This document shows, in pieces, positions 4,701 through 34,754 of a stretch of DNA of 64,000 nucleotides; the first letter of the stretch is position 1, and every line of letters starts with the position of its first letter. The notes below the pieces were generated by a model that had not been told where the DNA came from, did no database searches, and saw only the letters and a program-made list of their open reading frames with translations. The stretch spans positions 62,001-126,000 of the forward strand of contig NZ_JAODOR010000003.1 of NCBI RefSeq assembly GCF_025398275.1, written 5' to 3'. The translations under genes and the position numbers were made by a program. This DNA comes from Microbacterium memoriense (GTDB lineage: Bacteria; Actinomycetota; Actinomycetes; Actinomycetales; Microbacteriaceae).

Positions 4701-5254
4701 TCCCGCTGGCCAAGCACGCGTCGACCTCGATCCATGACCTGCTGGCTTCGGACGAGGTCGACGACGGCGACCAGGTGACGATCGCGGGACTCGTCACCAG
4801 CGTGCAGCACCGTGTCGCCAAGCAGAGCGGCAATCCGTACGGCATGATCACGGTCGAGGACTTCGACGGCGAGGTCACCGTCATGTTCATGGGGAAGACG
4901 TACACCGAATTCCAGTCGATGCTGGTCGCTGACGCGATTCTGGTCGTGCGCGGTCGAGTGTCACGCCGCGACGACGGGCTGAATCTGCACGGACAGATGG
5001 CGTTCGCCCCCGATCTCGGGACGGTGGATGCCGCGGGCCCTCTCGTCCTGCTCATGCCCGAGCACCGGGCGACCGAGACCACGATCGGTCAACTCGCGGA
5101 GGTCTTCACGAGACATCCGGGCGAGACTGAGATCACGGTCAAGCTGCACAAGGCAGGGGTCGCGAAAGTGTTCGAGGTGCCCACGCGCGTGCGCGTCACG
5201 GTCGACCTCTACGGAGAGCTGAAAGGGCTTCTCGGACCGCAATGTCTCGGGTGA
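1736..5254 (+). CDS. dnaE: DNA polymerase III subunit alpha (DnaE1 type)
   Basis: 1172-residue C-family replicative polymerase, of normal length for actinobacterial DnaE1. The N-terminal PHP domain has its metal motifs HLHVHSEYS (H8, H10, H12) and TDHGN (D43, H44), so it is probably an active proofreading exonuclease, as established for mycobacterial DnaE1. The palm domain carries PDFDVDFDDRR with catalytic D414 and D416. A YDF..NKAHSAAYG segment, helix-hairpin-helix region and C-terminal OB fold (about residues 1000-1090) follow. GTG start at 1736, leaderless. Intact PHP residues and length favour DnaE1 over the error-prone DnaE2. Confidence 0.97.
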   Translation: MASDSFVHLHVHSEYSMLDGAARIGAMVQEAARLDMPAIAVTDHGNTFAAFEFYRKAHAAGIKPIIGIEAYVTPGTHRSDKSRVRWGTPEQNRDDVSGSGAYTHMTLLSETTEGMHNLFRLSSKASLEGYYFKPRMDRELLQTYSAGLIATTGCPSGEIQTRLRLGQYDAARAAAAEFQDIFGKDNYFAEIMDHGLEIERRVTGDLLKIAKDLSIPLVGTNDLHYTHQHDATSHAALLCVQSGSTLDDPNRFKFDGDGYYVKSAAEMRQVFRDNPEACDNTLLIAERCNVEFNESANYMPRFPVPAGETEESWFVKEVENGLEFRYPDGIPANVRAQAEYETGVILQMGFPGYFLVVADFINWAKDHGIRVGPGRGSGAGSMAAYAMRITDLDPLQHGLIFERFLNPDRVSMPDFDVDFDDRRRGEVIQYVTEKYGDERVAQIVTYGTIKAKQALKDAGRVLGFPFSMGEKLTKAMPPAVMGKDMPLEGMFDPAHARFKEASEFRALIESDPEAKTVFDTAVGLENLKRQWGVHAAGVIMSSEPLIDIIPIMKREQDGQIVTQFDYPSCESLGLIKMDFLGLRNLTIIDDALDNIAANRGETVVLEDLALDDQAAYDLLARGDTLGVFQLDGGPMRSLLRLLKPDNFEDISAVIALYRPGPMGANSHTNYALRKNGLQEITPIHAEFEESLAEILSTSYGLIIYQEQVMAIAQKVAGFSLGQADILRRAMGKKKKEELDKQFAGFEAGMHANGYSDGAVQKLWEILLPFSDYAFNKAHSAAYGLVSYWTAYLKAHYPAEYMAALLTSVGDAKDKLAVYLNECRRMGIRVLPPDVGESIRYFAAVGEDIRFGLGAVRNVGANVVDGIVAVRADDSFVSFHDFLTKVPAHVANKRTIESLIKAGAFDSLGSTRRALMEIHEDATEAAVETKRKAATGAIGFDFDSLYDEAEEIMPAKVPERPEWTKKDKLAFEREMLGLYVSDHPLAGLEIPLAKHASTSIHDLLASDEVDDGDQVTIAGLVTSVQHRVAKQSGNPYGMITVEDFDGEVTVMFMGKTYTEFQSMLVADAILVVRGRVSRRDDGLNLHGQMAFAPDLGTVDAAGPLVLLMPEHRATETTIGQLAEVFTRHPGETEITVKLHKAGVAKVFEVPTRVRVTVDLYGELKGLLGPQCLG

Positions 5255-5271
5255 CTCATCACCCGGCCGGG

Positions 5272-5277
5272 TAGGAT
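5272..5277 (+). promoter_or_regulatory. -10 box for the 355-residue membrane protein gene
   Basis: TAGGAT 34 bases before the GTG at 5311. A ribosome binding site (GGAAGG, about 5295-5300) lies between them, so this transcript has a short leader. Confidence 0.45.
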
Positions 5278-5310
5278 CTCACCCGAACCGTCCCGGAAGG
5301 ACCAATCACC

Positions 5311-6378
5311 GTGAGTGACGAGAAGACCACCCCCGAAGAGGCTCAGGCCGACGTCTTCGCAGCCGAGAGCCCGACGCGCGATGCGTCCACCGCGGAGCTC
5401 GGCGCGCCGGCATCCGTCGACGAAGGGGGCCCCGACCAGGACCCCGATGTCTCGTTCGAGTCGTTCGGCGAGGCATTCGCGGCCGTCACCGACGGTCCCG
5501 AGACCGTCGACGAGGCGGCACCGCCGCAGTACGGGGTGGGCCCGTTCTCGATCCGCGAGGTGGCGCTCGGTGGCGTATGGCTGCTGGCCTTCATCTTTTC
5601 GTTCTTCCCGATCTACGGGCAGATCGGCAATGGCGTCTCGACGTGGAACGGCATCGACTGGGTCCTGACGATCGGTGTGCCCACCGTTGCGGTCTTCCTC
5701 GTGGGGCTCCGTCGTCTGTCACCGCAGGGTATCCGCCGCGTCGGCTCTCTCGGGATCGACCAGTTCGCGTCCGTCGCGTTCTCGGTGTCGACCGTGGTGT
5801 GGCTGGGGATGCTCTGGAACTCCTTCGTCACACTCGCCGGTTCCCGTGTCTTCTACGCCACGTGGGTCGTGTGGGTCGAGTTCGTCCTGATGCTCGCCGG
5901 TGTTTTCCTCACGGTCTTCGCGCCGCTGTTCCCGACGATCGGCGATGACTTCCGTCACCGCTCCGAGATCCCGGCGCACCGTTTCGCGAGCCCTGCACGA
6001 CCCGTGATCGCCCGTCCGGCGTCCGCGCGTCCGACCCCGCAGGCCGCGCCGGCAGCTGCTGCGCCGGTGGCCACGCCGACGACCGAGCACGGTGTCACCG
6101 ATGTGACACCGACTCCCTACGTCGCGGACGAGACGCAGGCGTTCGATCTTTCGACGCAGGATGAGCAAACGCCCGTCGTCGCTCCCGCCACGCAGGCGTT
6201 CTGGGCGCTGGTCCCGGTCGAGCGCGATGTCGTGGACGAGAACGGGGTGGCGCTGTTCACAATCGACCCGACAGCGTGGGCGCTCGTGATCGAGGACCGC
6301 GGAGACAGCTTCGTCGTCCGCCACGAGGACGGTCGCATCGGCTCGTTGCGGGACGTCTCCGGCGTCACGCGCGGCTGA
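5311..6378 (+). CDS. Four-TM membrane protein of unknown function
   Basis: 355-residue protein that I do not recognise beyond general similarity to hypothetical membrane proteins of Microbacteriaceae. An acidic, disordered N-terminus (about 1-75) precedes four hydrophobic helices near 82-102, 115-133, 150-172 and 188-207. An Ala/Pro-rich linker then leads to a compact C-terminal segment (about 298-355) containing FWALVPVERDVVDENG. GTG start supported by GGAAGG. It lies between dnaE and hisD on the same strand with its own -10 box. No catalytic motif is visible. An envelope or scaffold role is only a guess. Confidence 0.75.
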   Translation: MSDEKTTPEEAQADVFAAESPTRDASTAELGAPASVDEGGPDQDPDVSFESFGEAFAAVTDGPETVDEAAPPQYGVGPFSIREVALGGVWLLAFIFSFFPIYGQIGNGVSTWNGIDWVLTIGVPTVAVFLVGLRRLSPQGIRRVGSLGIDQFASVAFSVSTVVWLGMLWNSFVTLAGSRVFYATWVVWVEFVLMLAGVFLTVFAPLFPTIGDDFRHRSEIPAHRFASPARPVIARPASARPTPQAAPAAAAPVATPTTEHGVTDVTPTPYVADETQAFDLSTQDEQTPVVAPATQAFWALVPVERDVVDENGVALFTIDPTAWALVIEDRGDSFVVRHEDGRIGSLRDVSGVTRG

Positions 6379-34034: not shown

Positions 34035-34271
34035 TCACGGGCAGTGCATGAGCGGCTTCGGTCCCGAGCGGTCGAACGTGTGTTCCGACATCGCGTGCCC
34101 GCAGAGGGGGCAGGCGCGTTCGGTGCGCACCGGCTCCGGGTCGGTGTCGTAGGGTCCGACCGATGCCGGCCCCGCGACGCGGATGAGGTTGCTGTTCAGA
34201 TAGGCGTACCACCCCCCGGCCGCACGCACGCGTTCGCGGAGCGGGCGGCGGATAGGATCGGGCTCGGTCAT
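34035..34271 (-). CDS. Small cysteine/histidine protein divergent from an OhrR-like regulator
   Basis: 78 residues that I do not recognise as a named family. The C-terminal part holds C54-P-L-C57-G-H59, H64 and H76-C77, spacing suited to one metal site or redox centre. The N-terminal part (VRAAGGWYAYLNSNLIRVAG) is basic. The ATG is leaderless from a TACACT box that lies inside a palindrome shared with the regulator gene, so it is probably controlled by that regulator. Convergent with uvrB, ten bases away. Confidence 0.7.
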   Translation of the reverse strand: MTEPDPIRRPLRERVRAAGGWYAYLNSNLIRVAGPASVGPYDTDPEPVRTERACPLCGHAMSEHTFDRSGPKPLMHCP

Positions 34272-34275
34272 ATCC

Positions 34276-34301
34276 TTAGTGTACTAACTAATCTGTAGGA
34301 T
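34276..34301. promoter_or_regulatory. Divergent leaderless promoters with palindromic operator
   Basis: Perfect palindrome TTAGT-GT-ACTAA at 34276-34287. The minus-strand -10 TACACT (34283-34278) lies inside it, seven bases from the ATG at 34271. The plus-strand -10 TAGGAT (34296-34301) lies seven bases before the regulator ATG at 34308, placing the palindrome over its -35. The whole divergent region is 36 bases. Confidence 0.7.
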
Positions 34302-34307
34302 GGGGTC

Positions 34308-34754
34308 ATGAACGCCGACGACCCGCGTGACGACCTGCTGAAGCTCGACAATCAGCTCTGCTTTGCGGTCGTGACCGCCGCGCGGAACGTCGTCGCGATC
34401 TACCGCCCGATCCTCGAGCCGCTCGGTCTCACGCATCCGCAGTACCTCGTCATGCTCGCGCTCTGGGAAAGCTCGCCCCGCGCGCTGGGGGAACTTGCCG
34501 AGGAGTTGGCGATGGAGCCCGCGACCCTGTCCCCCCTCATCGGGCGCTTGCAAACGCAGGGGCTGGTGTCTCGCGGTCGCAGTGCGGCGGATGCCCGCGT
34601 GCTCGCCCTCGGTCTGACACCGGCTGGCGCGGCGCTTCGAGAGCGCGCGCTCGATGTCCCGGGTCAGGTGATGGCGGCCACCGGCATGACGCCCGAACAG
34701 GTGGCTGCCCTTCGTGACGGGCTGACGCCGTTTGCGGGACGACGTTCGCCCTGA
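34308..34754 (+). CDS. MarR-family regulator, OhrR-like
   Basis: 148-residue winged-helix repressor. The N-terminus LLKLDNQLCFAVVTAARN followed by LGLTHPQYLVMLALWE is the OhrR signature, with the peroxide-sensing C18 present; no second conserved cysteine is seen, so it is of the one-cysteine type. The recognition helix lies in AMEPATLSPLIGRLQTQGLV. No ohr gene is adjacent; the likely target is the divergent 78-residue gene plus itself through the shared palindrome. Sensing of organic hydroperoxide is inferred from family. Confidence 0.85.
   Translation: MNADDPRDDLLKLDNQLCFAVVTAARNVVAIYRPILEPLGLTHPQYLVMLALWESSPRALGELAEELAMEPATLSPLIGRLQTQGLVSRGRSAADARVLALGLTPAGAALRERALDVPGQVMAATGMTPEQVAALRDGLTPFAGRRSP

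Follow-up and report, generated by a model that had tools for sequence, protein, structure and literature searches.

The 64-kb stretch of Microbacterium memoriense DNA analysed here (64,000 nucleotides, hereafter the window) contains two divergent genes, encoding an OhrR-derived MarR regulator and a 78-residue protein, respectively. We consider, with somewhat better than even confidence, that they form a self-contained switch with a single operator, which is probably under thiol control and governs the small protein, a predicted zinc-knuckle protein. Sequence comparisons delineate the pairing, the operator, the position of a −10 element, a near single-site regulon, the regulator clade and the partner family.

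Architecture and conservation of the gene pair

The gene of the small protein (78 residues, predicted GP[AP]-helix and zinc knuckle; 34035-34271, reverse strand) and that of the regulator (148 residues, THPQY clade of OhrR-derived MarR proteins; 34308-34754, forward strand) are separated by a 36-bp gap containing the palindrome TTAGT-GT-ACTAA, as the first-pass annotation of this DNA had described. A search of 84,980 species genomes with the small protein gave 123 relatives, of which the best 80, almost all from Microbacterium, were taken for comparison; in all 80, the regulator lies divergently next to the small gene. That annotation had proposed to check the conservation of pair and palindrome across Microbacteriaceae: both are conserved, and both reach beyond this family. 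A restriction of the pair to Microbacterium was ruled out by its occurrence in other genera. An autoregulated MarR pair is by itself an ordinary, known kind of layout, and MarR dimers that bind palindromes in −10 regions and autoregulate are the rule (PMC2650471; PMC12421854).

A near-unique palindrome at two putative leaderless promoters

The candidate operator (TTAGTGTACTAA, 34276-34287) consists of two perfect 5-bp arms around a non-palindromic GT centre. It is the single site in the 64-kb window, where 0.08 sites were expected with up to 2 mismatches allowed, and the single site in the 2.76-Mb genome. An exact 12-mer is present in 70 of the best 80 of 123 relatives, and a copy with one mismatch in the other 10; each operator position holds 1.7-2.0 bits, compared to mostly <1 bit at the flanking positions. 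Of 39 Microbacterium genomes scanned for the motif at the DNA level alone, 34 have it, 33 of them with one site and one with two; at each of the 29 relatives' loci that were read, it occupies the gap that separates regulator and small gene. Moreover, in seven other genera, 11 genomes have all of their TTAGTNNACTAA sites next to the regulator. A chance palindrome was ruled out by this conservation, by the rarity in the window and the genome, and by the near one-per-genome occurrence. Because the motif is near-unique per genome and sited at the regulator, the latter appears to act locally, as a switch with nearly a single target; the position and conservation of the operator strongly support local autoregulation.

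The palindrome had been noted to cover the −10 of one gene and the −35 of the other. The former part holds well: the putative −10 hexamer of the small gene, TACACT (34278-34283, reverse strand), lies within TTAGTGTACTAA, 6 nt before the ATG. Among the best 80 of 123 relatives, TACACT is found in 77, and in 70 of the 80 it is located 6-7 nt from the start codon of the small gene. The regulator has a putative −10 hexamer TAGGAT (34296-34301, forward strand), also 6 nt before the ATG; in 57 of the same best 80, a TANNNT hexamer, most commonly TAGGAT, stands 5-7 nt before an in-frame regulator start. The recurrence of this layout in the relatives points to leaderless transcription of both genes, in which case the palindrome would span −16 to −5 relative to the small gene and −32 to −21 relative to the regulator. 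The latter part of the claim fits most of the best 80 of 123 relatives, in which 20-28 bp separate the end of the palindrome from the regulator start, which puts the palindrome on the −35, but the fit is only approximate in the window (−32 to −21); there the assignment is weak because a sigma-70 consensus scan gave no full promoter.

An OhrR-derived regulator clade with an altered cysteine environment

The regulator is a member of the MarR family (Pfam PF01047, 41.2 bits against a cut-off of 24.6, E 1.5e-10), and its AF2 model shows helices and a beta wing (pLDDT 93.5). The closest solved structures are OhrRs (2pfb, 6e-33; 1z91, 1.5e-28), and the match to the NCBIfam OhrR equivalog NF052638 reaches 121.5 bits, below the curated cut-off of 200. 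Cys18 (codon 34359-34361, forward strand) aligns with the sensing cysteine in the NQLCFA segment of Xanthomonas campestris OhrR and is invariant in all 81 sequences of the set built on the best 80 of 123 relatives, in agreement with the earlier remark that the peroxide-sensing cysteine is kept. By contrast, His43 (codon 34434-34436, forward strand) stands in place of the OhrR tyrosine at Cys+25: all 92 members of the clade, which spans many actinobacterial families (H-type), have His at this position, and all ten canonical OhrRs (Y-type) have Tyr. The tyrosine at Cys+4 is lost as well, giving way to Ala, Ser, Val or Thr, and that at Cys+14 (Tyr32) is kept. In the OhrR structures, tyrosines at Cys+14 and Cys+25 lie around the cysteine; because two of the three tyrosine positions are changed clade-wide, classical hydroperoxide reactivity may have been lost. 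Once the Cys+25 and Cys+4 columns were masked and four rows with long branches dropped, the tree split the THPQY clade from canonical OhrR (89 versus 9 rows) along a single branch supported at 100/100. The operator follows the same division, with TTAG-N4-CTAA present upstream of 27 of 69 non-Microbacteriaceae H-type regulators in 13 genera (mean of 0.02 in a Markov control) and absent upstream of the Y-type regulators (0/9).

As previously noted, no ohr gene is found near the regulator in this window; ohr and a second, canonical ohrR sit elsewhere in the same genome (G000:C3:207402-208272), with an operator of the AATT type (ACAATTGAATTGT / CACAATTGAATTGTG). Neither the control of ohr nor an AATT-type operator, two features of OhrR, was found for the H-type regulator, which has TTAGTGTACTAA instead. 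The suggested search for an ohr elsewhere with the same palindrome was negative: an ohr sharing it is ruled out in this genome by the single occurrence of TTAGTGTACTAA and the AATT-type operator at ohr. Furthermore, no H-type regulator has ohr within the 1.5 to 3 kb of flanking sequence fetched, compared to its presence at seven of nine Y-type loci. These findings, together with a small protein unlike Ohr in sequence and size and the Tyr-to-His change throughout the clade, argue against a classical organic-hydroperoxide module, with the regulator sensing organic hydroperoxides just as OhrR does and the small protein taking over the protective role of Ohr. We regard such a module as unlikely, even though OhrRs are the best structural matches, Cys18 and Tyr32 are retained, and the segment protected by Chromobacterium violaceum OhrR, ATAGTGCACTAT, is close to TTAGTGTACTAA (PMC3469484). 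With the tyrosines altered and ohr missing, peroxide is weakened to one candidate signal among several thiol agents.

The small protein combines a GPA turn with a predicted helix and a predicted zinc knuckle

The partner had been called unfamiliar, and it indeed falls into no known family, with neither a Pfam or NCBIfam match above cut-off nor a known family among PDB sequences. The RGCVC family protein NF038206 scores 17 against a cut-off of 35 and covers residues 44-64 only; this and the generic zinc ribbons of Pfam and NCBIfam, which also stay below cut-off, match weakly over the CxxC-x6-H stretch, and the Pfam matches of the wider family are weak and inconsistent. In the one annotated record found, it is a “hypothetical protein” beside a “MarR family transcriptional regulator”. 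The AF2 model is poor (pLDDT 74, pTM 0.31), and a fold search with this weak model gave no significant match. A helix is predicted at residues 21-33, followed by the motif G34-P35-A36 (34164-34172, reverse strand), which is invariant in the 81 Microbacterium-type members. The segments AGPA.VGPY, CPLC, H64, DR.GPKP and CP are invariant in 81/81 sequences of the set built on the best 80 of 123 relatives.

A C2HC zinc knuckle is predicted at 34041-34112 (reverse strand), with the ligand codons C54 (34110-34112), C57 (34101-34103), H64 (34080-34082) and C77 (34041-34043). Its C-x2-C-x6-H-x12/13-C spacing is kept in all 26 + 13 aligned members, and in the divergent Microbacterium members the CxxC, H and C persist, with the last interval shortened. 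The first-pass annotation had proposed CPLC...H...HC as a metal or redox site; C54, C57, H64 and C77 are likely metal ligands, through which the protein would bind zinc, but H76 is not conserved family-wide and drops out. The Microbacterium type and the distant members belong to one actinobacterial family (hhalign of A1 versus A3, probability 99.4, E 1.9e-21), which is characterised by a hydrophobic helix, a G-P-[AP] turn with invariant G-P, and the C2HC spacing. A profile search detected relatives in 42 of 395 genomes of the class, and a phylum-wide search with the wider profile gave nothing convincing outside the class, yielding three weak partial matches from one family.

The conserved C2HC site of the partner and the fixation of His43 along with Cys18 in the clade would also fit a ligand- or metal-responsive MarR regulator, in which Cys18 and His43 would form, instead of a redox switch, a site for a ligand or metal that is also handled by the small protein. 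However, the C2HC spacing looks structural, and the partners in other families lack the knuckle: H-type regulators face small GP[AP] proteins without it at loci L134, L140, L162, L171, L174 and L190, and small membrane proteins with FEHGPAKW at L141, L143, L157 and L160. On balance, this reading is not probable. Further H-type regulators in other families face other genes. The zinc-free GPx-helix partners match the zinc-type partners over 24 columns only, with a probability of 77, which is suggestive only of homology between the two partner types. At L157, L160 and L165 (genomes G141, G087 and G300), two tandem TTAGTNNACTAA sites, 15 bp apart, precede the H-type regulator, which is divergent to a 59-residue membrane protein with FEHGPAKW; the related 61-residue partner at L143 has a weak CrgA-like match.

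Given the near single-site regulon, in which the small protein is usually the sole visible target, it might serve as an accessory or anti-repressor of the regulator rather than as a downstream effector. This is distinctly improbable, as members of the partner family occur without the regulator in other families, several Microbacteriaceae carry a second copy, and the regulator is also found with unrelated partners. The neighbours of the regulator-free copies differ and share no functional theme. Regulator-free second copies are seen in other Microbacteriaceae genera (L216, L219 and L220, also L217, L218 and L221-L224) and most of them carry a tail resembling PLNELGMP at the C terminus. The copies of L216, L219 and L220 adjoin putative dhaK/dhaM genes, identified by eye.

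Proposed mechanism of a thiol-controlled switch

In the switch that we favour, a regulator dimer would bind TTAGTGTACTAA and cover both the −10 of the leaderless small gene and part of the regulator's own promoter, thereby repressing the small gene and tuning its own expression. Modification of Cys18 by oxidation, S-thiolation or electrophile addition, possibly aided by His43, would release the DNA, upon which the 78-residue protein would be made. This protein, predicted to consist of an aromatic/hydrophobic helix ending in the GPA turn and a subsequent C2HC zinc knuckle, might have an adaptor or docking role in the response to thiol stress, a guess from the helix-plus-knuckle layout. We infer the binding, the repression, the thiol-signal release and the adaptor role, and assign the release to Cys18 because the regulator is of the OhrR family; thiol-triggered release is a known behaviour of single-cysteine relatives (discussed in PMC11633110).

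Comparison with known systems

The regulator resembles the OhrRs of Bacillus subtilis (1z91) and X. campestris (2pfb/2pex) in the MarR fold, the N-terminal sensing cysteine in its LCFA context, the tyrosine at Cys+14, the local arrangement and the single cysteine like that of the 1-Cys type. It differs from them in the histidine at Cys+25, the Val, Ala, Ser or Thr at Cys+4, a partner other than ohr, and an operator of TTAG-N4-CTAA compared to TACAATT-N-AATTGTA. The exact 12-mer motif was not found in the open-licence bacterial papers searched. The nearest operator found there is ATAGTGCACTAT of C. violaceum OhrR, which has the same TAGTGnACTA core in a 12-bp inverted repeat within both footprints; however, that OhrR controls ohrA, and its authors also weigh AATT-type repeats (PMC3469484). 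ForZ of Streptomyces formicae is likewise a MarR protein; its one site in the genome lies in the space to a divergent gene, and a leaderless promoter is suggested, whereas the target is an exporter and ForZ is proposed to autoactivate (PMC12421854). SydR, QorR and HypS are also cysteine-controlled MarR repressors, but have other targets and are described as inactivated by disulfide formation (PMC11633110).

The clade, the operator and the partner family appear to be undescribed in the open-licence literature searched. We tentatively propose, at a little under even confidence for the whole, that Actinobacteria possess a widespread, undescribed OhrR-derived branch (Cys-x13-Tyr-x10-His), each member with one TTAG-N4-CTAA operator, which in many genera is dedicated to a new class of tiny GP[AP] proteins, often with a zinc knuckle, in a stress response separate from Ohr. 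This branch has swapped a partner tyrosine of the sensing cysteine for histidine, altered its operator and exchanged ohr for other proteins across many actinobacterial genera. With a near single-site regulon and one small gene as usually the only visible output, its function is directly testable, and the pair could bring to light a new signal, thiol or electrophile, as well as how OhrR-type sensors change specificity.

Genomic context of the pair

Among the best 80 of 123 relatives, the Microbacterium pairs are mostly flanked by uvrB, and many by uvrA too. A role in nucleotide-excision repair, suggested by this place between uvrB and uvrA, is nevertheless highly improbable, since in other genera (loci L098-L117) neither uvrA nor uvrB was detected next to the pair, so that the site looks like inherited gene order. 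In an annotated plasmid record (L266), a TfoX/Sxy-like gene (5221-5565) lies between uvrB and the small gene, and a gap of comparable size follows the small gene in L009, L013, L023 and other Microbacterium loci. In addition, Microbacterium-like loci occur in records labelled Stenotrophomonas, Planococcus and Microthrixaceae (L039, L048 and L057), probably through contamination or misbinning.
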